The position numbers and the translations under genes are program-made. Below, piece by piece: positions 25,769 to 40,824 of a stretch of DNA of 63,305 bases. The stretch is from Flavobacteriales bacterium (GTDB taxonomy: Bacteria > Bacteroidota > Bacteroidia > Flavobacteriales > BACL11). How positions within the stretch are numbered: the stretch's first letter is position 1; every line of letters begins with the position of its first letter. The notes beneath the pieces are model-generated. The model had not been told where the DNA came from and did not search any database. It saw nothing but the letters and a program-made list of their open reading frames with translations. The stretch is from NCBI GenBank assembly GCA_014239655.1, contig JAAZYM010000033.1:1-63305 (forward strand), written 5' to 3'.

Positions 25769-27682
25769 TTAGTTCTTGTCTACCCAATCGTCATGTTCTT
25801 TAATTAAATCAATTAAAGCATCTACAGCTTCTTCTTCATCAATATTTTTTTTGACAACAGTTTTTTCTTTATATAATGTGATTTTTCCTGGGCCTGTTCC
25901 TACATAACCATAATCTGCATCTGCCATTTCTCCAGGACCATTTACAATACAGCCCATAATTCCAATTTTTACTCCTTTTAAGTGATCAGTAACTTTCCTG
26001 ATTTTAGCTGTGGTTTCTTGGAGATCAAAAAGAGTTCTTCCACATGATGGGCATGATATGTATTCAGTTTTAGAAATGCGAGTTCTTGTAGCTTGTAGAA
26101 TTCCAAAGCCTAATGAGTTAATCATTTGATCCGAACCACAATCTGGCGCATAAATAAACGCCCCATCTCCTAATCCATCTAACAGTAAACTACCAATATC
26201 TATAGAAGCTGAAAGTTGTAATTTTTGCTCGGATAAATTTTCATAAGCTCTTCTAATAATTACAGGAGTTTTTATTCCGCTATTTATGAGTTCTATAAAA
26301 AATCTTCTCTGTTCTGCAATTCCGTTTTTATTATGTGTGTCTATTAAAAGTACTGCCGTTTTGTCTAATTTTAGTTTGTTTTTTAGTTCTTCAGATAAAT
26401 CTGAGAAGCAAGCATAAATCACATTCATTTTATCAGACTGATCTTGCTCACTTAAATATTGTTTTGTAGTTAAACAAGGATAACCCTTTTTATGTTTGTT
26501 CCATTTTTGATAGTTGTAAATTAACCTAAGAGTTCCAGGAACCTCAAAATCTAAATCATGATCTCCAACAAAAACATAATCTGCTGCCATATCTGAAATA
26601 TTCCACTTGTCTAAAGGAACAGAGTAGTTATATCCTAAAGCAAAAAAAGAGGCAGGTGTTATTTTCTTTTTAAGACAAAAATCCGCTTTTATTATAGGGG
26701 GATTTTTTCCTCCAATATTTAAAACTGTGTTGGTTTTTCTTTTTTGATAATCAAATGAATGAAGAGGGTTGTCAGTTATTTTTTTAATAGAATCATGTCG
26801 CTCAATTTTTTCAAAATGAGAAAGTAAATTTTTAGCAACAGGCAACTCAAATTCAGGAGCTTCTGTAAGAGAAACTCTAATTGTATCACCTAGTCCATCT
26901 GCTAAAAGAGTACCAATTCCTACAGCTGATTTTATTCTTCCATCTTCTCCCTCTCCTGCTTCTGTGACTCCTAAATGCAAGGGATAATTCATGCCTTCTT
27001 TGATCATTTTTACTACTAATAAACGGTATGCTTGCACCATAACTCTTGTATTAGAGGCTTTCATTGAGAGGATAATTTCATGATAATCTTCTTCACGACA
27101 AATTCTCAGAAACTCCATTGCAGATTCCACCATTCCTGTTGGAGTGTCACCATAACGAGATAGAATTCTGTCCGATAAAGAACCATGATTTGTTCCTATT
27201 CTCATAGCAGTACCATGTTCTTTACAAATTTTTACAAGAGGAGTAAATTTTTCTTTTATTCTTAACAGCTCTTCATTATATGTTTTGTCGGTATATTCAA
27301 TCTCTTCAAACTTTTTTTTGTCAGCGTAATTTCCAGGGTTTATTCTAACTTTTTCTACTATCCTAGCAGCTACTTCTGCAGCGTTAGGTGTGAAGTGAAT
27401 ATCTGCAACAATAGGAGTTGAGTATCCTCTTTTTAAGAGTTCATCTTTAATGTTTTTGAGATTCTCAGCTTCTCTTTTACTTGGAGCTGTTATTCTTACT
27501 AATTCACAGCCCGCATCAATCATACGTATCGATTCTTCAACAGTAGCAATGGTATCCATTGTATCTGTTATGGTCATAGATTGAACAGCAATAGGATTAT
27601 CTCCTCCAATTTTCAAATTACCAATCTTTACAACCCTTGTTTTAAAGCGAGAAAATTTAGTTAAACTATTGCAATATTCCAT
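25769..27682 (-). CDS. ispG: 4-hydroxy-3-methylbut-2-en-1-yl diphosphate synthase (long form)
   Basis: Penultimate enzyme of the MEP isoprenoid pathway; a [4Fe-4S] reductive dehydratase. The N-terminal TIM barrel (VAVQSMTITDT-like start, VADIHFTPNAA, KVRINPGN) and the C-terminal Fe-S domain with cysteines in SCPSCGRTLF and MGCIVNGPGE are intact. At 637 residues it is the long form with a large central insertion (about 290-520) shared by Bacteroidota, Chlamydiae and plants, rather than the 370-residue form of E. coli. Its ATG abuts the stop of the PNGase-like gene upstream. Confidence 0.95.
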   Translation of the reverse strand: MEYCNSLTKFSRFKTRVVKIGNLKIGGDNPIAVQSMTITDTMDTIATVEESIRMIDAGCELVRITAPSKREAENLKNIKDELLKRGYSTPIVADIHFTPNAAEVAARIVEKVRINPGNYADKKKFEEIEYTDKTYNEELLRIKEKFTPLVKICKEHGTAMRIGTNHGSLSDRILSRYGDTPTGMVESAMEFLRICREEDYHEIILSMKASNTRVMVQAYRLLVVKMIKEGMNYPLHLGVTEAGEGEDGRIKSAVGIGTLLADGLGDTIRVSLTEAPEFELPVAKNLLSHFEKIERHDSIKKITDNPLHSFDYQKRKTNTVLNIGGKNPPIIKADFCLKKKITPASFFALGYNYSVPLDKWNISDMAADYVFVGDHDLDFEVPGTLRLIYNYQKWNKHKKGYPCLTTKQYLSEQDQSDKMNVIYACFSDLSEELKNKLKLDKTAVLLIDTHNKNGIAEQRRFFIELINSGIKTPVIIRRAYENLSEQKLQLSASIDIGSLLLDGLGDGAFIYAPDCGSDQMINSLGFGILQATRTRISKTEYISCPSCGRTLFDLQETTAKIRKVTDHLKGVKIGIMGCIVNGPGEMADADYGYVGTGPGKITLYKEKTVVKKNIDEEEAVDALIDLIKEHDDWVDKN

Positions 27683-30600
27683 TATATCTTAACAACCTTT
27701 TTAAGAATCTCTTTGTCGTTGGTTATGATCTTTATCATATAGACACCATCTTTTAAGTAACTAAGATCTATATTTTTTGAAAAATCCCCTTGAGTTTCTA
27801 TTGTTACTTTTTTTAACTTTTTACCTATGCTATCAAGAACAACAAAATCTGTTATCCCTTCAGAAAATCCTTTTATTGTAATTTGGTTTTTGGCTGGATT
27901 TGGGTAAAATGACCATTCAGTTAAATCCTCTTCTATAGATGTTGTGTTGTTGTTAACTTGAAATTCATGATGAATGAAAGATCCAAAGTCACCTTCAAAA
28001 ACTTTTATCCAACTACCTGCTAATTTTCTAAATCTAGCCATTCCAGCACCATCATTGTTTGCCCAGAAATCAATCCCATCATCATCAGTATCAGTCATAA
28101 TAAAACTATAACATCCATCATCAAAAACCAGGGTGTCTCGGTATTGACTATTAATCATTAGACTTCCTCCTCCTGCTGATTCGTATGTGAGGTTATTGTT
28201 GCTATCATAAATTTTCCATGAAGTCTCTGATTGGTTTAATCCAATACTTCCGCTATTTGTTTGTAACCATAGCGCAAAAGAATTCTCGTATGATGGAGTT
28301 GGTTCAAATGTGGAGTTAATATAATTGTTATATATGTTTTCGTCTGAGGATTGGTTTGGCTCACTGATTTCTACATAGAATTTATTATTTGAGTTCATTA
28401 GGTTGTCCCAAATACTTGACGGAGCATTTAGTTCAACTGTATCTTGTTCTTGAAAGTTTAGATTTCCACTCCATATTTGAGATTCTTTATTTGTTGAGTT
28501 GTTTACCCAATATTCAATTTTCAGACTTGTTAAGGAATTTGCTCCAGTATTCTTTATAATAATTTTTGGTTTCCCACATGTTGGATTAATTCTTGAGTAT
28601 TTTACTTTATCTGTTGGAGAGATTATATCAACTACTGAAGCATCTAGATTATGATTTGGAGCTTTGTAGCTTACAAGCTGAGAGCTTACCCAATAATTTG
28701 AAGTTCCTGATGCATTAGTCACTCCATAATCAATATTATGAGTTTGCCCGGCTGTTACTAAGGATGTGATATCATCTTCTCTTAAATCAGAAGCTTGACC
28801 TGGACACCATCCTGCTCTATCATAAATCCATGTTCCTCCTTGAGGATAGATAGGGTTGCCTCCACATTCTGTCCAAACAGGCCATGTGTATTCAATATTT
28901 CCTCCATTAATATTTATAAAATGATCTCTAGGTATAAATTCCCCCTCTTGACCGTGGCCAGTTATTACAGTTCTTATTTTGTAGGATACCGCATTTGGAT
29001 CTAATTGGATATCTCTAGGTTCAAATGAATCTTCATTTAATATTGATGTATATCCTCTTGATTGAGGCCTCCAAATTTGCTGAATATCTACAACATCTCT
29101 AGATGGTGTTCCAACAATGAAATGAAATTTAATATCCATATCCTCTTGCCATTGCCCTCCACTGGTCATATTGATTCTTTTTAGTCCTTTTAGTATTGGC
29201 GCAAAATCTGTAACGTCGAAATACCAGGTTTTTCCATAGGTTCCTAAATCAAGATATGCCCCATAGGGAGTTACAAATGACATGATTTGGAATGCCATTG
29301 GGTATCTATTATAATAGATTAATTCTCCGACATAGATAGTGCTGTCAATATGTAATGTATCACTAGAAATAACTATACCGCTTGTATCATATGTATTACT
29401 TACAGCATGCCAAAAGGTGTTTGATGAAATAACAGCAATACTATCGTGATTTAATGAGTTGTAATTTGAATAGACAGCTCTTTCTTGAATAGTATTTGGA
29501 GGTGCTAATAGTGAATCTAGGATAGTTGATATTGTAGTAGTGCTCTGATAATCTCCCTGGAAAATTTTTAGTGATGGACGAAGATTTGTTGATGTGAAAA
29601 ACTGAGATATTTTTTCTCCTCTTGAAGATTGCCATAGTACATTTCCATTAAAATTTGCAATAGCATTATTAGAGGAATTGTCATTAGCATTATTTCCGTT
29701 TCCTTCATTAAAAGGATAATAGGCCACTAAGTTATTGTAATCGGGATGGTTGTTGTTAAGACGTATATTCATCCATTCACCTATCGTAGTTTGATTAAGC
29801 TCTTTGTTAAAAATTCTTAATTCTTTTATTTTTCCATCCCAGAAATAACCTGTCCCTTTTCCATTAGACCCTAAGCTTAGCTGTTGAATATCTATTAGTT
29901 CATTTTTATTATTTCCGCTATGCCAGAGCATACCATTCTTATACATTTTCATTTCTCCACTAACACTATTTTTTGTAAAAACCCAGTGATTCCATTTAGA
30001 TGAGAATTCGTTTTGGCTTGCTAGCTTATCTATTCTATCGTATGAGCCTGCATTATTTCCGCAATCCCAATAAACTCTACTATTGCTCCAGGGGAAATGA
30101 ATGTTTAGTGTTCGGCTTCCATTAGCATCAAGGCCTTCAAGTATTGTACTATTATAGGGTAGTGTGTTTTCGTCACCATAAACCCAGAAAGAAACGGTTA
30201 TTTCATTTGAGATTGTGCTTAGTGGCGCGTGTGGTATTGATATCGATTCATTTTGGTTGATGTCAATATTTACCGCATCATTCGAGCTAAGTCCACAATT
30301 AAAGTTTAAAGAATCCCCTGAAATTAAAGTTGGAGAAGATGTTACAGAGTTTGTTAGAGAAAACTCAATAATTAGATTAGATATAGAGTCCCAAAGAAAA
30401 GGAGTGTGGAATTGGAAGCGATTTTCACCAGGATTAAGATTGGAATTTGCATGATACACTTCTGTAAAACCATTTATGTTTGGGGATGATGAATTTAAAA
30501 CGCTATCTGTTGTTAGTTTAAGTTTTATTCTAAGAAAATTAGCTGTGCTAGCGCCAATGCTATTGACTGATAGCCCATAAATTGAGTCATTTGTTAATCC

Positions 30601-31134
30601 TAAATTGCTAAGCTCATTAGCTTTGTATAGGAATTGAGATTTGTTTGAAGATTTATCTGTTTCTAAAACAAAACCTAGCTGATGATTTCCTTGGCCAGTC
30701 TGTATAGTGTCTTCATTTAGGATGCTATTAATAATTGTGTTTTGCTGATAAAATTGATAGTAATTATATACTGGAGAAATACTATAAGGATAGATGTTTC
30801 CTGAAAAACTTGAGATTAAATGACTTGCAGTTTTTGCTCTAATTGAATCAATTCTACTTGAATCATGAATATTTGTGTGGCAGCTATAGTCCCAAGCTCC
30901 ACAGCCTATATGGTTAATGCTTCCGCTAGTATTTACAACATCATCTTTACATCTCATATTGTATGATATAATTATCTTTTCGTAGCTAAGAGCATTATTG
31001 GGAAAATTAATCATAGTGTCTCTTGTTGTGCTTGAATAATCAAATGTTTGTATTGTGATTGTGTCCCCGGGATTTTGTCCAAATAATGAAATACAGTTTA
31101 GAAAGAAGATAAAAAGTGTGATTTTTCTTATCAT
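27682..31134 (-). CDS. T9SS-secreted PNGase F-like protein with inserted LamG domain
   Basis: 1150 residues. Signal peptide (to about residue 20, FGQ); an N-glycanase-N-like start with GCGAWDYSC (D82 aligns with the catalytic Asp60 of Flavobacterium PNGase F, alignment from memory); a LamG/concanavalin-like domain at about 290-455; then the rest of the glycanase fold: FVTPYGAYLDLGTYGKTW, FHFIVGTPSRDVV, GEFIPRDH (E732, aligning with Glu206) and the family hallmark YPQGGTWIYDRAGWCPGQ. A CARDB-like region, an Asp-rich segment and a type A T9SS domain (FYPNPAKNQITIKG) follow. The residue equivalent to Glu118 appears not to be conserved (GGQW), so amidase activity needs testing. Its stop overlaps the start of ispG. 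Confidence 0.85.
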   Translation of the reverse strand: MIRKITLFIFFLNCISLFGQNPGDTITIQTFDYSSTTRDTMINFPNNALSYEKIIISYNMRCKDDVVNTSGSINHIGCGAWDYSCHTNIHDSSRIDSIRAKTASHLISSFSGNIYPYSISPVYNYYQFYQQNTIINSILNEDTIQTGQGNHQLGFVLETDKSSNKSQFLYKANELSNLGLTNDSIYGLSVNSIGASTANFLRIKLKLTTDSVLNSSSPNINGFTEVYHANSNLNPGENRFQFHTPFLWDSISNLIIEFSLTNSVTSSPTLISGDSLNFNCGLSSNDAVNIDINQNESISIPHAPLSTISNEITVSFWVYGDENTLPYNSTILEGLDANGSRTLNIHFPWSNSRVYWDCGNNAGSYDRIDKLASQNEFSSKWNHWVFTKNSVSGEMKMYKNGMLWHSGNNKNELIDIQQLSLGSNGKGTGYFWDGKIKELRIFNKELNQTTIGEWMNIRLNNNHPDYNNLVAYYPFNEGNGNNANDNSSNNAIANFNGNVLWQSSRGEKISQFFTSTNLRPSLKIFQGDYQSTTTISTILDSLLAPPNTIQERAVYSNYNSLNHDSIAVISSNTFWHAVSNTYDTSGIVISSDTLHIDSTIYVGELIYYNRYPMAFQIMSFVTPYGAYLDLGTYGKTWYFDVTDFAPILKGLKRINMTSGGQWQEDMDIKFHFIVGTPSRDVVDIQQIWRPQSRGYTSILNEDSFEPRDIQLDPNAVSYKIRTVITGHGQEGEFIPRDHFININGGNIEYTWPVWTECGGNPIYPQGGTWIYDRAGWCPGQASDLREDDITSLVTAGQTHNIDYGVTNASGTSNYWVSSQLVSYKAPNHNLDASVVDIISPTDKVKYSRINPTCGKPKIIIKNTGANSLTSLKIEYWVNNSTNKESQIWSGNLNFQEQDTVELNAPSSIWDNLMNSNNKFYVEISEPNQSSDENIYNNYINSTFEPTPSYENSFALWLQTNSGSIGLNQSETSWKIYDSNNNLTYESAGGGSLMINSQYRDTLVFDDGCYSFIMTDTDDDGIDFWANNDGAGMARFRKLAGSWIKVFEGDFGSFIHHEFQVNNNTTSIEEDLTEWSFYPNPAKNQITIKGFSEGITDFVVLDSIGKKLKKVTIETQGDFSKNIDLSYLKDGVYMIKIITNDKEILKKVVKI

Positions 31135-31170
31135 GAAAGTCGTAGGTTTAGTTGTAATGCAAATTTAATT

Positions 31171-31722
31171 TTAATTTTCAATTTCTGATACACCTCCAGA
31201 TACTATTAGTTTCATAATATCACTCGATGAAGAGTTAATAGGAGTAAGTAATCTTTTTTCTACAAGAAATAATTGCCCTGAGAATGCGTATGAGTGAGGA
31301 AGGTATACAAGCACTTTCTCTTTGCTGATATTAAGACTTGCTAGATCCTCATTTGTTATAAATCCAATTCTTTCTATAGTAGAATTTTCATATACTTTAA
31401 CAAGGACTGCTTGATCAAATCCTTTTTTTCCACCAACAAATGTCTTCATTAAGTCTTTTACAGAAGAGTAGATTGTTTTTAAAAGAGGCGCTTTTTTAAG
31501 TATTTTTTGGAATAAAGAATTGAATGGAGATGCAATAAGTTTTGAGCCAACCATTCCTATTAATGTAATGATGGCAAAGAGTACTATAAGGCCAAGTCCA
31601 GGAATGTCAAAGGGAAGTATTCCGTCAATTTTATTGAACGACCATATCACAACATAGATGGTTACGCTTATAGGAACTATATAAAGTAATCCTTGTAGAA
31701 AGTAGTTTATTATCTTTTTCAT
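31171..31722 (-). CDS. DUF502 family integral membrane protein
   Basis: 183-residue membrane protein of unknown function. MKKIINYFLQGLLYIVPIS starts the first transmembrane helix; a second helix is LGLIVLFAIITLIGMVG; the conserved soluble part has APLLKTIYSSVKDLMKTF, VLVKVYENSTIERIGFIT and LVYLPHSYAFSGQLFLV. A longer frame to 31764 would begin inside an inverted repeat (31737-31770) and add an unlikely basic leader, so the Met at 31720-31722 is preferred. Confidence 0.85.
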   Translation of the reverse strand: MKKIINYFLQGLLYIVPISVTIYVVIWSFNKIDGILPFDIPGLGLIVLFAIITLIGMVGSKLIASPFNSLFQKILKKAPLLKTIYSSVKDLMKTFVGGKKGFDQAVLVKVYENSTIERIGFITNEDLASLNISKEKVLVYLPHSYAFSGQLFLVEKRLLTPINSSSSDIMKLIVSGGVSEIEN

Positions 31723-31736
31723 AAGTAATTTTAAAA

Positions 31737-31770
31737 TGGATTTTAAAGATAATAATCTTCTCAAAATCCA
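31737..31770. repeat. Interrupted inverted repeat upstream of DUF502
   Basis: TGGATTTT (31737-31744) pairs with AAAATCCA (31763-31770), and inside it AAGAT (31746-31750) pairs with ATCTT (31755-31759) around the loop AATA. It sits 15 bp from the DUF502 ATG and overlaps a near-consensus -7 element on the minus strand (TATCTTTA). It may be an operator or a 5' leader hairpin. Confidence 0.6.
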
Positions 31771-31846
31771 CGATTATTATTCTCTAATTTTTTTCTTTAT
31801 TATTTTTTAGTTCATTTTTACATACTTTAGTGCTTTTTTATGTTGT

Positions 31847-31890
31847 TTTAGTGCTTTTTAGTGCATTTTAGTGCATTTTAGTGCATTTTT
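31847..31890. repeat. 10-bp tandem repeat array (GTGCATTTTA units)
   Basis: Four head-to-tail units begin at 31851 (GTGCTTTTTA), 31861 and 31871 (both GTGCATTTTA) and 31881 (GTGCATTTTT), with a further diverged copy of TTTAGTGC at about 31826-31833. The period is close to one helical turn, so GTGC motifs recur on one DNA face. It lies between two divergent genes. It may be slippage-prone or a multi-site regulator target. Confidence 0.8.
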
Positions 31891-32057
31891 TTTGTCTTTT
31901 TTATACATTTTTATGAATTTATCTTTTTTGTTATAATATTATTTGGATAGATAAGATTTCAAAAACTATCTTGTTGATACATTTAGATGTTAATTTATTT
32001 TTAGACAAAAAATAATTTAAAAAAAATATAATAACATACACGAATCTTCTTATTTAT

Positions 32058-32065
32058 TAACTTTG
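32058..32065 (+). promoter_or_regulatory. -7 promoter element for the T9SS cargo operon
   Basis: TAACTTTG matches TAnnTTTG and ends 18 bp before the ATG of the first arylsulfotransferase-like gene. A -33 TTTG is not evident at the usual distance. Confidence 0.5.
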
Positions 32066-32083
32066 TGAAATTAAAAACTTGTC

Positions 32084-33655
32084 ATGCCAAAAATTCTTAT
32101 TACACTAATTTTTCTTTTATTTTCTTGTTTATCATATGCTCAAAACTTTAATGGTTTTGCAATATATAATGCTCAGGGATCAAACACTACTTATCTAATA
32201 GATGAGAATCAAAATATTGCTCATACATGGACAATGTCAACTGAATGTAATTATACTGTTCAGTTAAAAGATAATGGCAACCTAGTTAGAGGAACTAAGA
32301 ATAATATTCAAACTGGAGGGACAAATAATTTCCTAAATGGTGCAGCTGATGCTGGAAGAGTGCAAGAGATTGATCATCATGGTAATGTAGTAATGGACTT
32401 TATTTATAATACATCTTCAGTTTTATCGCATCATGATATTACTCTTATAGGAGATAATGTACTTCTTACTGCTTGGGAGGTGAAAACTTCTACTGAAATT
32501 AATAATGCAGGAGGTAGTACAACATCAGATAAATGGCCAACACATTTTGTAGAGGTTGCTTCTGATGGAAATGGAGGAGGACAGATTGTATGGGAGTGGC
32601 ATATTTGGGATCATATGATTCAAGATACAGACTCAAGTAAGCCTAATTATGGGGTTATTTCAGAAAATCCACAACTTATTGATATTAATATGATTACTGG
32701 TGGTGGCGGCCCTGGTGGTGGTGGTGGAGATTGGTTTCATGTAAATGGGGTAGATTATAATGAAGATTTAGATCAGATTGCATTTTCTTCAAGATTTGCC
32801 AGTGAGATATATATTATTGATCATAGCACAACAACTGCTGAGGCAGCTTCTCATAGTGGTGGTAATTCTGGGATGGGAGGAGATATTCTTTATAGATGGG
32901 GGAATCCATCTAATTATGATATACCAGGAACTCAAGTGATACCAAATGCTGTTCATGATGTAAGATGGATTACTGATGATGGAAGACCGAATGGAGGTTT
33001 TTTACAGATATTTAATAACTCAGGAGTATCAAGTAATCAATCCACTATTGATGGTATAGATGCACCAATTGACCCAACAAGTCAATATAATTATTATAGG
33101 GCAAGTGGTCAGGCATTTGGCCCCTCTTCATACACAACAAGGTATGTATGTGCATATTCTGCAAGTGGTCAATCTGCCTCTGATCGTTTATCTAATGGTA
33201 ATATTTTTGTTAATGCTTCAGGTGGTCAAGGTGGAGCTGGAGTGATGTATGAAGTTGATCAGAATGGTACAATTATATGGGGCCCATATAATGCAGATAC
33301 TCAAAAAGCGTTCCGATATGAGTGTGAACATCCAGCAATTATTGCTTTAGAACCATATATGAATTCTATTGCCACAAGTTCATGTTTTTCAACATCTATC
33401 TCAAATTTTGAAAATCAAAATTTATCAATCTATCCAAACCCAAGTAATGGTGTAGTAAATATTAATTATCCAGATAACAACATAAACAATTTTGAGCTTA
33501 AAATAAGAAACCATCTTGGACAAGAAATTATGATAATTAATAATATAAATACTAATTCTATTGATCTATCCAATCAACCTCACGGAATTTATCATTTTAG
33601 TATCTTTGTTGGTAATAAAGAAATTGAGACTTTTAAAGTAGCACTAATAAAGTAA
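32084..33655 (+). CDS. Arylsulfotransferase-like beta-propeller protein with T9SS sorting domain (copy 1)
   Basis: 523-residue secreted protein: signal peptide (ends YAQ, residue 20), then a propeller related to the bacterial arylsulfotransferase families (GFAIYNAQGSNTTYLIDENQ, HTWTM, LSHHDITLIGDNVLLTAWE with H116/H117, WHIWDHMIQD, DWFHVNGVDYNEDLDQIAFS). Then come a glycine-rich stretch near residues 205-215 and a C-terminal type A T9SS domain (IYPNPSNGVVNINYP ... GIYHFSIF). Enzymatic sulfate transfer in these Bacteroidota relatives is not established. It is the first gene of three that touch or overlap. A second family member lies at 39280-40824. Confidence 0.85.
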   Translation: MPKILITLIFLLFSCLSYAQNFNGFAIYNAQGSNTTYLIDENQNIAHTWTMSTECNYTVQLKDNGNLVRGTKNNIQTGGTNNFLNGAADAGRVQEIDHHGNVVMDFIYNTSSVLSHHDITLIGDNVLLTAWEVKTSTEINNAGGSTTSDKWPTHFVEVASDGNGGGQIVWEWHIWDHMIQDTDSSKPNYGVISENPQLIDINMITGGGGPGGGGGDWFHVNGVDYNEDLDQIAFSSRFASEIYIIDHSTTTAEAASHSGGNSGMGGDILYRWGNPSNYDIPGTQVIPNAVHDVRWITDDGRPNGGFLQIFNNSGVSSNQSTIDGIDAPIDPTSQYNYYRASGQAFGPSSYTTRYVCAYSASGQSASDRLSNGNIFVNASGGQGGAGVMYEVDQNGTIIWGPYNADTQKAFRYECEHPAIIALEPYMNSIATSSCFSTSISNFENQNLSIYPNPSNGVVNINYPDNNINNFELKIRNHLGQEIMIINNINTNSIDLSNQPHGIYHFSIFVGNKEIETFKVALIK

Positions 33656-35911
33656 ATGAAAAGAAGCCCTATAATTTTTATACTATCAGCTTTACTTTCA
33701 TTGAATTCTTTCTCACAGAATTTCTATGATGTTGATAATATTAGAGAGATAAAATTATATTTCTCACAACCTAACTGGGATCATCTTTTAGATAGTTTAT
33801 ATATTGATGGATTAGAGGAGAGGTTATTAGCAAATATTGAGATCGATGGAACTCAATATGATAGTGTTGGAGTAAGATATAAAGGGTTTAGTTCTGTTAG
33901 TATTAATACCGTGAAAAATCCGTTTAATATAAAATTAGATTATGTAGATAATAATCAAAGTCATGAGGGGTTTAAAAAAATTAAACTCTCTAACGTAATT
34001 AAAGACCCTTCTTTTTTGCGTGAGGTGCTTTCATATGAAATTGCAAGAGGCTATATGCCTAGCCCACGAGCGAATTATGCTAATTTATATGTTAATGACA
34101 CATTATGGGGTTTATATGTAAATGTTGAAGCAATAAATGATAAGTTTACTAATAAACATTTCGCATCAGTAAACGCTCCTTTATTTAAGTGTAACCCTCT
34201 TAATCTTAGTTTACAAACAGGAGGAGAGAATTCTAATTTAAGTAATACTCATGGATTAGATAGTACATATTATTTTGATTATTATGATCTAAAATCTAAT
34301 TATGGATGGAGTGATTTATATAGTTTAATTGATACCTTAAATAATTTCCAAAATAGTATTGATAATATTTTAAATGTGGACAGAACATTATGGATGCATG
34401 CCTTTAATTATACACTGATTAATTTTGATTCTTATATAGGGTATAGTCAGAATTATTATCTTTATAAAGGATTATCTCATCAATTTCATCCAATATTATG
34501 GGATTTAAATATGTCATTTGGAAGCTTTCGTTTGACAGACGCTACTCAAGCGTATTTTAATGGCTTTGATATTAATCAAGCTCAAAATATGGATCCATTA
34601 ACATTCCTAACTAGTAGTTTCTTGTCTCCTCGTCCGTTAATAACTAATCTATTAAGTGATCCTAGAAATCAAAGGATGTATCTTGCGCATATGAGAACTA
34701 TTATTGAAGATGAATTCTTAAATCAGAATTATGTATCGAGAGCTCAATATTTACAAAGTTTGATTTCTACTGATGTACAGAATGATTTAAATAAATTTTA
34801 TTCTTATGCAGATTTTTTAGATAATTTAAATAATCAAGTTGCAATTCCAAGTTCCATATGTCCTGGTATCACACAGTTAATGGATGCAAGAGCAACATTT
34901 TTATCAAATTATTGGTCTGGATTCACTCAGCCGAGTATTTCAAATATTCAAACATTGCCAAATTCGAATCAATTTTTTGGTGGGGATTTATCCATTACTG
35001 CTCAAATACAAGATGCTTCATATGCAATGGTTGCTTATAGGTTCGGAGAAAATATGCCATTTGAAAATATTCAAATGTATGATGATGGTAATCATAATGA
35101 TGGTAATGCCAATGATGGTGTTTATGGAGTAATAATTAATAATTGTAGTAATTCAATTGATTATTATTTGTATGCTGATAATAGTAATGAAGGCGTGTTC
35201 TCTCCTAAAAGAGCAGCTTATGAGTTTTATCATCTAGAAACCACTATTCCACAGTCAAGTTTAGTTATTAATGAGGTGATGGCTAACAATCAAACTACCG
35301 TAATGGATGAAACTGGAGATTATGATGATTGGATTGAGCTGTATAATACAACAAGTACTCCTATTTCTACTGCTGGATTGCTCTTTTCAGATAACCAACA
35401 GAATCTTGCTAAGTGGGATCTTCCAAATGCTGTTGTTAATCCTAATTCTTATTTTATTATTTGGGCGGATGAAGATGGTAATACCGGCGATAACCATGCT
35501 AATTTTAAACTGTCTAATCTTGGTGAACAACTTATCTTATCAAATAGTGATTCTTCTATTGTAGATGCTGAGTTTATTTATCCTCAACTAGATGATATTG
35601 CATATGCTCGTTCTCCTAATGGTACTGGAGGTTTTACTATGTTAAACCCAACATTTAAAAGTAATAACACTCCTACATCAATTGAAAATATTTTAGAAGA
35701 TGATAACTTGATAGTCTATCCAAATCCATTTATTAGTAAGCTTACAATTGATTATAATCAAGACTTTTATATAACTAATGCACTTGGAAAAAAGGTATAT
35801 AATTCAAACAACAGTACATTGATTAACACTTCTTTATGGAACACTGGATTATATATTCTTCATTTTGATGATGCAGAACAAAATACTATTAAGCTTATAA
35901 AAATTAAATAA
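33656..35911 (+). CDS. CotH-kinase-like protein with lamin-tail and T9SS domains
   Basis: 751 residues: signal peptide (ends SFSQ); a CotH domain (about 25-400) with VGVRYKGFSSVS, NPFNIKLDY, IKLSNVIKDPSFLREVLSYE and the metal-binding D283-L-N285 in LWDLNMSFGSF; a lamin-tail domain (about 545-660: LVINEVMANN, DYDDWIELYNTT); and a type A T9SS domain (VYPNPFISKLTIDYN ... GLYILHFDD). CotH proteins are atypical secreted protein kinases in spore coats and elsewhere. Its start codon directly follows the stop of the sulfotransferase-like gene. Kinase activity is inferred from the fold only. Confidence 0.88.
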   Translation: MKRSPIIFILSALLSLNSFSQNFYDVDNIREIKLYFSQPNWDHLLDSLYIDGLEERLLANIEIDGTQYDSVGVRYKGFSSVSINTVKNPFNIKLDYVDNNQSHEGFKKIKLSNVIKDPSFLREVLSYEIARGYMPSPRANYANLYVNDTLWGLYVNVEAINDKFTNKHFASVNAPLFKCNPLNLSLQTGGENSNLSNTHGLDSTYYFDYYDLKSNYGWSDLYSLIDTLNNFQNSIDNILNVDRTLWMHAFNYTLINFDSYIGYSQNYYLYKGLSHQFHPILWDLNMSFGSFRLTDATQAYFNGFDINQAQNMDPLTFLTSSFLSPRPLITNLLSDPRNQRMYLAHMRTIIEDEFLNQNYVSRAQYLQSLISTDVQNDLNKFYSYADFLDNLNNQVAIPSSICPGITQLMDARATFLSNYWSGFTQPSISNIQTLPNSNQFFGGDLSITAQIQDASYAMVAYRFGENMPFENIQMYDDGNHNDGNANDGVYGVIINNCSNSIDYYLYADNSNEGVFSPKRAAYEFYHLETTIPQSSLVINEVMANNQTTVMDETGDYDDWIELYNTTSTPISTAGLLFSDNQQNLAKWDLPNAVVNPNSYFIIWADEDGNTGDNHANFKLSNLGEQLILSNSDSSIVDAEFIYPQLDDIAYARSPNGTGGFTMLNPTFKSNNTPTSIENILEDDNLIVYPNPFISKLTIDYNQDFYITNALGKKVYNSNNSTLINTSLWNTGLYILHFDDAEQNTIKLIKIK

Positions 35912-37161
35912 TGATGAGTGTAGTAAGGGTGTTTCTTTTTTCATTTCTTTTATCGAGCTTTCCTATTACCTCACAGACAATAACTTCGTATACATCAGCT
36001 GATGGTTTGTTAAATAATTATGTTGAATGTGTCGCTGTAGATATTAATGATAATGTTTGGTTTGGAACAGCTTTTGGGGTTTCTATGTATGATGGGAGTA
36101 CATGGACTAATTATGATCAATCTTCTTATCCTTTAATGTTATCTAATGATATTAAAGCAATAACAGCTACATCAAATGGGGATATTTGGATTGGCACAGA
36201 TTACGGGGTGAATAAACTGCATGCAGGTGTGACAGGAATGACCTGGCTACCTTTTACTACTGCAGATGGTCTTGCTAATAATAAAGTAACTAGTATTGAT
36301 GAGGCTCCTAATGGAGATTTGTGGTTTTCACATTCCTCTTTTTCAGCTGGAGTGAGTGTGTTTGATGGATCTAATTGGAGTTCCTATAATTCTCCTGATC
36401 TTCCAATAAGTGGAGTCTGTGGAACATCTTTTGATTCAAATGGTGATAAATGGTTTGCTTCACCATTAGATGGCCTGGCTCATTATGATGGTGTTAATTT
36501 TACCAATTACACAGTAAACGATGGATTATTGAGCAACTATAGTACAACTATTTGTATTGATGATAATGATAATAAATGGTTAGGATCATCTAGTGGAATG
36601 ACAGTTGTTAATCCTATGGCAAATCAATTTTCATTCCATACAATAATGTATTCTCTTCCGCCTCCAGATACTTTAAACCCAGTAGTTGATATTGCTAAAG
36701 ATTCTTGGGGAAGAATATGGACAACAATATATGTTGGTTATTTAGCTGAAGGTGGCGTCGCATTTTGGAATGGTAATCAGTGGACAGATTATGATCATAA
36801 TGATGGTATTGCTGGACCAAATGTTAAGGGGCTTGATATAGATTCGCAAAATAATGTTTGGGTAGCTACTACAACAGGTGTTTCAAAGATCTCTACTACT
36901 CCAAGTAGTACCACACAAGATCAATTAGCTGTTATTAATGTTTATCCAAATCCTGCTTCAACAGTTTTACATATTTCTTTATCCAGGGATAATATAGAGT
37001 CTATTTCTTTGTATGATAATTTTGGAAGAAAAGTTGTTAGTTATAATAACATTTCAGTATCATTATTGGATATTAATCTTTCTGATTTCTCATCAGGTTT
37101 ATATTATCTTGAAATTGTTTCTTTGGATGGCCTGGCTAGTAAGAAAGTATTGGTTCAATAA
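35911..37161 (+). CDS. Reg_prop beta-propeller protein with T9SS sorting domain
   Basis: 416 residues: signal peptide, then repeated blades of the two-component-regulator propeller type, each with an 'ND.VWFGT..GV...DG..W..Y' pattern (NVWFGTAFGVSMYDGSTW, DIWIGTDYGVNKLHAG, DKWLGSSSGMTVVN, NVWVATTTGVSKIS), then a type A T9SS tail (VYPNPASTVLHISLS ... GLYYLEIVS). There is no histidine kinase or transmembrane output domain, so this is a free propeller, probably binding a glycan or protein. It overlaps the CotH stop by one base (TAATG). Confidence 0.88.
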   Translation: MMSVVRVFLFSFLLSSFPITSQTITSYTSADGLLNNYVECVAVDINDNVWFGTAFGVSMYDGSTWTNYDQSSYPLMLSNDIKAITATSNGDIWIGTDYGVNKLHAGVTGMTWLPFTTADGLANNKVTSIDEAPNGDLWFSHSSFSAGVSVFDGSNWSSYNSPDLPISGVCGTSFDSNGDKWFASPLDGLAHYDGVNFTNYTVNDGLLSNYSTTICIDDNDNKWLGSSSGMTVVNPMANQFSFHTIMYSLPPPDTLNPVVDIAKDSWGRIWTTIYVGYLAEGGVAFWNGNQWTDYDHNDGIAGPNVKGLDIDSQNNVWVATTTGVSKISTTPSSTTQDQLAVINVYPNPASTVLHISLSRDNIESISLYDNFGRKVVSYNNISVSLLDINLSDFSSGLYYLEIVSLDGLASKKVLVQ

Positions 37162-37249: not shown

Positions 37250-38245
37250 ATGTCTAGAATCCTTACAGTAATATTTAGTTTATGTGTTCTTGGTTCTTGT
37301 ATAACACCAAAGGTTTATAATGAGTTATTAGATAAACATGAGATAGCCAAGAAAAATCTGACCAAGAATGAGAAATTAATACTTCAGTTAAGAGAGACTT
37401 TAAGTGATAAAGAAAATAATATTCAGTCGCTCAACTTATTAGTTGAGAATCTCCGTTCCGACTCAGCAAGGCTTAACAATGAATTAGTTTCATGCCAAAA
37501 GAAATATGATGACTTGAGTACTACATATGATCTGCTAACATCAAAAAGCAGTAGATATATGGCAGAGAAGGCTAAGGAAACTAAGGAACTCTTAGGGCAA
37601 TTAGAGAAGACTCAGTCAGAGCTTTTTGCTAAAGAGGATGAGTTAAATAAATCTATCGCAGATCTTGAAGAGAAGGAGAGAAAACTTATTGATTCTAAGA
37701 ATGAGTTAGAGCTGCGCTCATTAAGAGTTATGGAATTAGAGGCAATTATAAATAGAAAAGATTCTATGGTTACTGCTCTTAAGCAAAAGATTTCACAAGC
37801 GTTAATTGGATTAGAAGGAGATGGCCTTACTATAGTACAAAGAAATGGTAAGGTGTATATTTCATTAGAAGAAGATTTGTTATTTGCTTCTGGAAAATAT
37901 GAAATAAATAAATCGGGGAAAGAAGCTCTTGATAAATTATCTGACGTATTATCATATCAAAAGGATTTAGAGATTTTAGTAGAAGGACATACCGACAGCA
38001 TTCCACTTAGTGGAAGAGGTTTAGTGAAGGATAATTGGGATTTAAGTGTTATGCGAGCAACTTCTGTCGTTAAACGCTTGACATCAAATTCTAATTTAGA
38101 TCCAACTCAATTAATTGCTGCTGGTAGAAGTGAATTTGTTCCTATTGTGTCAAATTCATCATCCGATGGCAGAAGTAAGAACCGTAGAATTGAGATGATT
38201 CTTTCTCCAAATTTAGATGATTTATTTAAGCTTTTGGAGGAGTAA
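37250..38245 (+). CDS. OmpA family lipoprotein with coiled-coil stalk
   Basis: 331 residues. A lipobox (VLGSC, Cys17) predicts a lipoprotein. A long heptad-rich coiled coil spans about residues 25-185, followed by an OmpA-C peptidoglycan-binding domain (about 200-325: LLFASGKYEINKSGKEAL, ILVEGHTDSIPLSG, LIAAGRSEFVPIVSN, RSKNRRIEMIL). It probably tethers an envelope membrane to peptidoglycan across the periplasm. A -7 element lies just upstream, so it is likely independent of the preceding operon. Confidence 0.9.
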   Translation: MSRILTVIFSLCVLGSCITPKVYNELLDKHEIAKKNLTKNEKLILQLRETLSDKENNIQSLNLLVENLRSDSARLNNELVSCQKKYDDLSTTYDLLTSKSSRYMAEKAKETKELLGQLEKTQSELFAKEDELNKSIADLEEKERKLIDSKNELELRSLRVMELEAIINRKDSMVTALKQKISQALIGLEGDGLTIVQRNGKVYISLEEDLLFASGKYEINKSGKEALDKLSDVLSYQKDLEILVEGHTDSIPLSGRGLVKDNWDLSVMRATSVVKRLTSNSNLDPTQLIAAGRSEFVPIVSNSSSDGRSKNRRIEMILSPNLDDLFKLLEE

Positions 38246-39279: not shown

Positions 39280-40824
39280 ATGCGAAGGATTATATTTTTA
39301 TTTGTTTTTATACCTAATTTTTTGTTTACGCAGAATCAAACTTTGGGTTTGTTTCAATATGATTCAGGATCAATTGATGGGTACACATTATTCTCACCAA
39401 ATGAATATACTTATCTTATTGATAATTGTGGTAAACTCGTTCATTCATGGCAAAGCTCATATATGCCAGGAAATTCTGCATATTTATTAGAGAATGGAGA
39501 TTTACTTAGAACATGTAGAACTACAAGTTCAGTTTTTTCTGGAGGAGGTATTGGCGGTAGAGTTGAAAGATATGATTGGGATGATAATTTACTATGGAGC
39601 TATGATTTTGCTGATAATAATTATCATCAACATCATGATATAGAATTAATGCCCAATGGAAATATATTGGTTCTTTGCTGGGAGAGAAAATTATTGATAG
39701 ACGCTATATTGGCAGGAAGAGATCCTTCAACTTTAGTTGATAATGAGTTATGGCCAACATATATAATAGAAGCAGAACCCCAAGGAAGCAATGGAATTAA
39801 TATCGTTTGGGAATGGCATTTTTGGGATCATCTTGTTCAAGACTTTGATCCATCAAAATTAAATTATGGTACCGTGGAAAATCATCCAGAACTTTTAGAT
39901 ATTAATTTTTATGGGAACAATGGTAAAAAAGATTGGTTACATTGTAATTCAATTGATTATAATGCAGATCTCGATCAAATTGTAATTAGCTCTAGAAAAT
40001 TATCAGAACTCTATATAATTGATCATAGCACAACAACATCTCAAGCTGCTTCTCATAGCGGAGGAATATATGGTCAAGGAGGAGATATATTATATAGATG
40101 GGGAAATCCAATAGCCTATAATAATGGAACCTCTGCAGATCAACAACTTTTTGGACAACATGATGTTCAATGGATTCCGAATGATTTAGAAGATGGTGGG
40201 AAGTTGATTGTTTTTAACAATGGTATGAATAGGGGATATAGTTCTGTAGATGTTATTCTTCCACCAATTGATGTAAATAATAATTATTATTTAAGTAATA
40301 ATGTTTTTGGGCCTTCTTTCCCAGATTGGACATATACAGCTCCAAATCCTACTGATTTTTATGCTTCATATATTTCAGGAGTTCAGAGATTGCCAAATGG
40401 TAATACTTTAATCTGTGATGGTGCGCATGGGATTTTTTTCGAGATTGATTCTACAGAAAATATCGTCTGGAATTATGTTAACCCAATATCGTCAAACGGT
40501 CCTTTAGTTCAAGGCAATTCTATTCCATTAAATAACAATGGCAATGGAACAATTAATTCTACTTTTAGGTGCCAACGGTATCTACCATCTTTTCTAGGAT
40601 TTATAGGAAGAAATCTTACTCCAGGAAATTATCTAGAGATTAATCCAATAGTAACTTCATGTAATATGATAACCGATATTCATCAAACATCTTCTCATAA
40701 TAAAAACAGGGAGTTACTGTATATTACTGATTTATTAGGAAAAAAAACAAAATTAAAGTATAATTCAATATTGTTATATCAGTATGATGATGGTTATGTA
40801 GAGAAGAGGTTAATTAAAAAATAA
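39280..40824 (+). CDS. Arylsulfotransferase-like beta-propeller protein (copy 2)
   Basis: 514 residues, same family as the copy at 32084. Shared blocks are GLFQYDSGSIDGYTLFSP, HQHHDIELMPNGNILVLCWE, WEWHFWDHLVQDFDPSK, LHCNSIDYNADLDQIVIS, IIDHSTTTSQAASHSGG and GGDILYRWGNP. The glycine run of copy 1 is missing. The C-terminus (DLLGKKTKLKYNSILLYQY, then DDGYVEKRLIKK) is a shortened T9SS-type ending common in Flavobacteriales. A signal peptide precedes residue 18. It is preceded by the 41-residue membrane protein gene and overlaps the convergent barrel gene by 11 bp. Confidence 0.85.
   Translation: MRRIIFLFVFIPNFLFTQNQTLGLFQYDSGSIDGYTLFSPNEYTYLIDNCGKLVHSWQSSYMPGNSAYLLENGDLLRTCRTTSSVFSGGGIGGRVERYDWDDNLLWSYDFADNNYHQHHDIELMPNGNILVLCWERKLLIDAILAGRDPSTLVDNELWPTYIIEAEPQGSNGINIVWEWHFWDHLVQDFDPSKLNYGTVENHPELLDINFYGNNGKKDWLHCNSIDYNADLDQIVISSRKLSELYIIDHSTTTSQAASHSGGIYGQGGDILYRWGNPIAYNNGTSADQQLFGQHDVQWIPNDLEDGGKLIVFNNGMNRGYSSVDVILPPIDVNNNYYLSNNVFGPSFPDWTYTAPNPTDFYASYISGVQRLPNGNTLICDGAHGIFFEIDSTENIVWNYVNPISSNGPLVQGNSIPLNNNGNGTINSTFRCQRYLPSFLGFIGRNLTPGNYLEINPIVTSCNMITDIHQTSSHNKNRELLYITDLLGKKTKLKYNSILLYQYDDGYVEKRLIKK

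Follow-up and report, generated by a model that had tools for sequence, protein, structure and literature searches.

Three adjacent genes on the + strand of the DNA analysed here, which encode an arylsulfotransferase-family protein (ASST1), a CotH-kinase-family protein (CotH1), and a Reg_prop β-propeller protein (PROP), form one functional unit with little doubt, and this trio probably belongs to the CotH-VTC-DUF4956 system. The reading that we favor, at a probability of about 0.5, is that the trio constitutes a co-expressed and co-exported, T9SS-displayed arm of that envelope system, which would be specific to Bacteroidia and would act on one surface target. A description of ASST with CotH, or of ASST with T9SS, as a combination was not found in the open-licence literature.

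The window, i.e., the whole 63,305-nucleotide stretch that we analysed (contig C37), belongs to a draft genome of 1.46 Mb that is 88.5% complete. Its ORF listing contains the trio as three + strand ORFs of 523, 751, and 416 codons, located at 32084..33655 (ASST1), 33656..35911 (CotH1), and 35911..37161 (PROP), respectively. As the first-pass annotation of this DNA had stated, the three genes lie back to back at 0-1 bp; more specifically, the spacing is 0 bp between ASST1 and CotH1, and CotH1 and PROP overlap by 1 bp. Pfam searches assigned Arylsulfotrans (E = 5.8e-12) to ASST1, which has a signal peptide-like N-terminus; CotH (E = 6.3e-43) and LTD (E = 5e-13) to CotH1, in which Pfam and NCBIfam models mark out a CotH kinase domain, an Ig-like (choice_anch_X) stretch, a lamin tail domain, and a T9SS tail; and Reg_prop (E = 3.8e-17; 60.6 bits) to PROP, which is a propeller with a T9SS tail and without a histidine kinase part. 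The type A T9SS tails proposed earlier for all three proteins were likewise recovered, since Por_Secre_tail scored above its curated Pfam cut-off in each and TIGR04183 (NCBIfam) agreed, placing the + strand sorting domains at 33428..33640 in ASST1 (36.8 bits), 35714..35902 in CotH1 (33.8 bits), and 36940..37158 in PROP (49.5 bits). PADLOC anti-phage defence models gave zero matches for ASST1, CotH1, and PROP.

A profile search revealed that SprA is encoded in the host genome, and a TIGR04183 search located type A T9SS tails at 43 places in it, which together make T9SS export of the trio plausible. Judged by sequence, the three proteins are T9SS type A cargo, i.e., they carry the C-terminal TIGR04183 domain in a genome in which T9SS is present. 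Contig C28 of the same genome holds three tails within about 4 kb. T9SS cargo runs alone are not rare, and the trio exceeds chance by its conservation.

The first-pass annotation had proposed checking whether the trio is conserved, and it is. With ASST1 alone as the query against 84,980 GTDB species genomes, we recovered 80 loci, six of which stop at ASST1, leaving 74 with downstream sequence; these include related genomes, and the counts are not independent. CotH1 is next after ASST1 in 72 of the 74 (an M43-peptidase-like ORF intervenes in three), PROP stands after CotH1 in every locus with sequence beyond CotH1, and the intergenic gaps within the trio are mostly -11 to +11 bp. The trio is retained down to about 46% identity, in records titled Flavobacteriales, Cryomorphaceae, Crocinitomicaceae, Fluviicola, Aureispira, and Saprospiraceae. 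Its flanks differ by group: the window's genus and its relatives have DUF502/OmpA next to the trio, most of the remaining genera in the family have MazG and CotH2, and other groups have unrelated genes; the trio, kept while its flanks turn over, thus persists as a unit in differing surroundings. In a tree of ASST1 and CotH1, the window falls in the DUF502/OmpA group, and an OmpA-family gene indeed lies 88 bp past the trio (37250..38245, +) as a lineage-specific neighbor outside the conserved unit. The earlier view that tight coupling signals joint action is supported. The genomes are mostly metagenome or single-cell assemblies; G447, which also carries the trio, is a single contig of 3.9 Mb. 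ASST1 of genome G030 (L047, 7408-9004) and CotH1 of genome G007 (L054) are disrupted by in-frame stop codons or a break in the frame, reflecting either decay or assembly error in draft assemblies.

A wider sample of 395 genomes, spread evenly over the class, contained 38 with an ASST1-like gene at E <= 1e-100. From this class sample and an order sample we drew 40 further loci, mostly of other Bacteroidia, and in 37 of them CotH lies within three genes of ASST on the same strand (35 scored by script, plus L222 and L224, where a longer opposite-strand ORF masks the ASST gene and which were counted after inspection). Two gene orders both keep ASST with CotH, i.e., CotH next to ASST, or a CBM-like gene between them. 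Among these 37 further ASST+CotH loci, a true propeller is present in 13; most of the rest have, as their third gene and usually between ASST and CotH, one for a T9SS protein of 330-340 residues that weakly resembles starch-binding and pullulanase X25 modules (hence CBM-like). A propeller as the third gene of distant Bacteroidia was ruled out because the propeller-like score came solely from the T9SS tail. Thus, the CBM-like third gene in distant Bacteroidia indicates that the deep core is ASST+CotH together with a third T9SS cargo that varies in kind, and not the trio. PROP itself matches the sensor-domain propellers of hybrid two-component kinases (3v9f, E = 1.7e-24; 4a2l, E = 2.6e-23). It resembles PorZ in combining a Reg_prop propeller with a T9SS tail and reaches 48.3 bits with the PorZ model, but this is far under the NCBIfam equivalog cut-off of 260 bits, PROP is about half the length of that model, and identification as PorZ was rejected.

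These data also bear on whether the three proteins might simply be co-regulated T9SS cargo with separate jobs, CotH1 being a surface kinase, ASST1 a scavenger that shifts sulfate among environmental phenolics, and PROP a separate binder, such that expression but not a target is shared. The sea contains phenolic sulfates, the third partner is swapped in other lineages, and each family also occurs alone in the host genome (four CotH matches and two ASST genes beyond the trio, besides the 43 tails), all of which fit such an arrangement. However, near-perfect retention over long distances despite flank turnover exceeds what shared expression usually needs, and both gene orders hold ASST with CotH; on balance, we regard separate jobs as unlikely.

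ASST1 scored 45.7 bits against Pfam Arylsulfotrans (cut-off 24.2), with the match spanning residues 31-252 only, and its mean column identity is 65% across 24 orthologues. An hhalign comparison with a stretch of E. coli AssT (E = 7.4e-6) equated H219, N221, and R237 of ASST1 with H356, N358, and R374 of AssT; the H219 codon lies at 32738..32740 (+), and the three residues make up an H.N...SSR motif. H291 (codon 32954..32956, +) and H117 reach H436 and H252 of AssT via ASST2 and ASST3 of the same genome together with the solved sulfotransferase 9kf6 and 3elq/4p04, whereas short AssT fragments compared directly gave no support. By this indirect alignment, H117 and H291 are the candidate counterparts of H252 and H436. 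The printed sequences show that the mutation in 4p04 falls on AssT position 436, and this histidine carries the transient sulfate. Loss of this catalytic His436 from ASST1 seems unlikely, since H291 aligns there through the intermediates and is invariant. All five residues (H117, H219, N221, R237, and H291) are invariant in 77/77 ASST1 sequences; in a wider ASST set of 61, H219, N221, and H291 are kept throughout and H117 in 60, and 26 have His in place of R237. ASST1 is a putative sulfotransferase-type enzyme, predicted from its family to be PAPS-independent. It shares with E. coli AssT (3elq) a Pfam family match above cut-off and the active-site His/Asn/Arg motif, but its overall similarity is very low, it bears a T9SS tail and has its own set of several conserved cysteines, and its genomic partner is CotH in place of the DsbL/DsbI pair of AssT. 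The AlphaFold2 model of ASST1 (mean pLDDT 45) was too poor to show the six-bladed propeller fold of the family or for a fold search, probably owing to a shallow alignment.

Similarly, CotH1 scored 148-150 bits against PF08757 (cut-off 23.8), with the kinase domain at 33872..34810 (+; 150 bits). An hhalign comparison with E = 8e-4 and a probability of only 24% matched its D258, N266, and D283 to the NFD..HN and WD motifs in Bacillus CotH (5jd9), such that D258 (codon 34427..34429, +) stands opposite the Asp of NFDGF and D283 (codon 34502..34504, +) opposite the first Asp of WDYD in the B. cereus protein. These positions, which we take to be the catalytic residues of CotH, are invariant in 68/68 sequences and in 36/36 of a wider set. 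CotH1 is thus like Bacillus CotH in its Pfam domain and in its NFD..N and WD motifs, and unlike it in having a T9SS tail, Ig-like and lamin tail domains, and WDLN for WDYD. As for ASST1, the AlphaFold2 model was too poor for a fold search, with a shallow alignment as the probable cause. Given the retained active-site residues, neither ASST1 nor CotH1 resembles a dead remnant; the first-pass annotation had let its proposal depend on catalytic residues, and on alignment they are found, and found invariant, in both proteins. Bacillus CotH has been described as a protein kinase (PMC7112168).

The limited span of the Pfam match and the weak similarity to solved ASSTs could also mean that ASST1 is a structural or binding propeller with a retained ASST fold, leaving CotH1 as the sole enzyme of the unit. 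The frequent His at R237 in distant relatives agrees with such a role, and we know of no sulfuryl donor outside the cell. Yet H117, H219, N221, and H291, invariant in the 77 sequences and nearly so in the wider 61, would be unusual for a noncatalytic propeller, and a non-enzymatic ASST1 accordingly seems to us quite unlikely.

Streptococci, clostridia, and bifidobacteria carry CotH, a polyphosphate polymerase, and DUF4956 as a set of contiguous genes, and in the first two groups CotH-VTC-DUF4956 genes lie beside Pel exopolysaccharide clusters (PMC7112168). In most genera of the window's family, the trio is followed by CotH2, a 137-residue lipoprotein-like protein, VTC, DUF4956, DUF2490, and a cytidine deaminase (domain E-values of 2.5e-23 for VTC, 3.5e-53 for DUF4956, and 4.7e-24 for DUF2490), with CotH2 being about 40% identical to CotH1. 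Five arrangements were seen: (i) trio-CotH2-lipoprotein-VTC-DUF4956-DUF2490, in 14/80 loci; (ii) trio-VTC-DUF4956 without CotH2 (L110 and L114); (iii) trio-DUF4956-VTC, i.e., in reversed order (L123 and L126); (iv) trio-lipoprotein-VTC-DUF4956-DUF2490 (L216 and L217); and (v) ASST-CBM-like-CotH-(lipoprotein)-VTC-DUF4956-DUF2490 (L225, L231, L233, L234, L240, and L241). Four loci of other Bacteroidia (L231, L233, L234, and L240) encode an extra protein of 167-247 residues with short repeated motifs directly before VTC. DUF4956 lies within 10 kb in 8/38 scored ASST loci, versus about 0.5% expected at a random place (single DUF4956 gene, ~4 Mb genome), and it is present in 36/43 trio genomes versus 54/255 others across the order, a comparison that is confounded by kinship. 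For most trio loci outside the window's family, no VTC/DUF4956 was seen in roughly 5 kb downstream; the linkage is therefore not obligatory.

In the window's genome, the two halves sit on different contigs. A MazG-lipoprotein-VTC-DUF4956-DUF2490 cluster is found on contig C47 (L163:8120-9915) with no CotH beside it, a lack shared by the window's genus, whereas relatives have kept a CotH there; it corresponds to the MazG locus of the relatives minus the trio and CotH2, with MazG directly adjoining the lipoprotein gene. No CotH2-like match to CotH1 was obtained in the searched genomes of the window's genus. With a cluster that lacks its own CotH and no CotH2-like match in these searched genomes, CotH1 is the natural candidate partner of VTC-DUF4956, the link between the trio and the C47 cluster inside this genome being co-presence only. 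We therefore call the window's trio, which is not contiguous with VTC/DUF4956, a dispersed variant and not a standard CotH-VTC-DUF4956 member; membership in the cluster is claimed for the trio of the relatives, and the window's trio would work like it. Compared with the described gene set, the relatives share a CotH gene contiguous with VTC and DUF4956, but the trio CotH bears both a T9SS tail and a lamin tail domain, its partners are an ASST-family protein and either a propeller or a CBM-like cargo, and there are no Pel genes. The first-pass annotation, which mentioned neither the VTC/DUF4956/DUF2490/lipoprotein linkage, nor the lamin-tail domain of CotH1, nor the OmpA-family gene at 37250, had presented the trio as the strongest candidate for an undescribed system. 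As a variant it may still be called undescribed, but not as a wholly new system, since the linkage ties it to the known CotH-VTC-DUF4956 cluster, itself described only in part and functionally uncharacterised.

The same linkage would suit a role in assembly and not modification, in which CotH1, ASST1, and PROP would anchor or cross-link to the surface a polymer that VTC-DUF4956 exports (e.g., polyphosphate or a phosphorylated polysaccharide), and the Pel-flanking genes (PMC7112168) and the starch-binding-like partner in other Bacteroidia point the same way, but polysaccharide-synthase genes were not recognised directly beside the unit and the kinase description of Bacillus CotH (PMC7112168) opposes it, so that we give it still less weight than a non-enzymatic ASST1.

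Under the reading that we favor, i.e., a T9SS-displayed arm of the CotH-VTC-DUF4956 system, T9SS would carry ASST1, CotH1, and PROP to the outer face of the outer membrane, where CotH1 may phosphorylate a surface glycan or protein, and ASST1 may move sulfuryl groups from phenolic sulfates onto that same glycan or protein. PROP, or the starch-binding-like protein in other Bacteroidia, would hold the target or keep the enzymes together. The unit might depend on a phosphate-containing polymer that the VTC polymerase in the cytosol and the membrane protein DUF4956 provide or export; this is the least certain step. That both enzymes are active on a shared target is put forward more tentatively than the arm as a whole. 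A bolder and unlikely possibility is a trans-envelope phosphorylation-sulfation, in which VTC and DUF4956 would make and export polyphosphate as the extracellular phosphate donor or acceptor for CotH1, and ASST1 would use environmental aryl sulfates to sulfate the same surface target. CotH-type kinases work extracellularly, where little ATP is available; their substrates and donor are largely open. A stable kinase and sulfotransferase-type unit, found repeatedly with a polyphosphate-polymerase-like gene and a membrane protein, offers defined partners and point mutants for testing, as well as a concrete function to seek for the pair of VTC and DUF4956 and for several T9SS cargo families that are still uncharacterised.

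Upstream of the trio, the divergent intergenic region (31765-32083) contains T-tracts every 10 bp at 31826..31889 (+), and arrays stand at the same place in related genomes. Among 242 intergenic regions of the examined loci, chains of at least 5 T-tracts occur only in the DUF502/ASST1 gap of related genomes, with differing unit sequences and the same period. The window's genome has this one array; in relatives, one or a few occur at other places, several of them next to an FAD-monooxygenase-like gene. Curved DNA or a decaying minisatellite are our guesses as to its nature. A promoter consensus search yielded nothing usable. GC skew and gene strand switch at about 30000-32000, with mostly - strand genes to the left, + strand genes to the right, and a local cumulative skew minimum near 30 kb, which could be chance or a replication origin. 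The T-tract array as a replication origin fits the skew and strand switch of the window but fails in other genomes, and was rejected.

Downstream, a second ASST-family gene (39280-40824) keeps the active-site residues and has no recognised T9SS domain. Its relatives lie elsewhere, among proteins of ~600 residues and not beside the trio, and it was therefore rejected as a conserved neighbor. On the other side, the product of 27682-31134 is a T9SS cargo of 1150 residues that combines a laminin-G-like domain with a PNGase F C-terminal domain.
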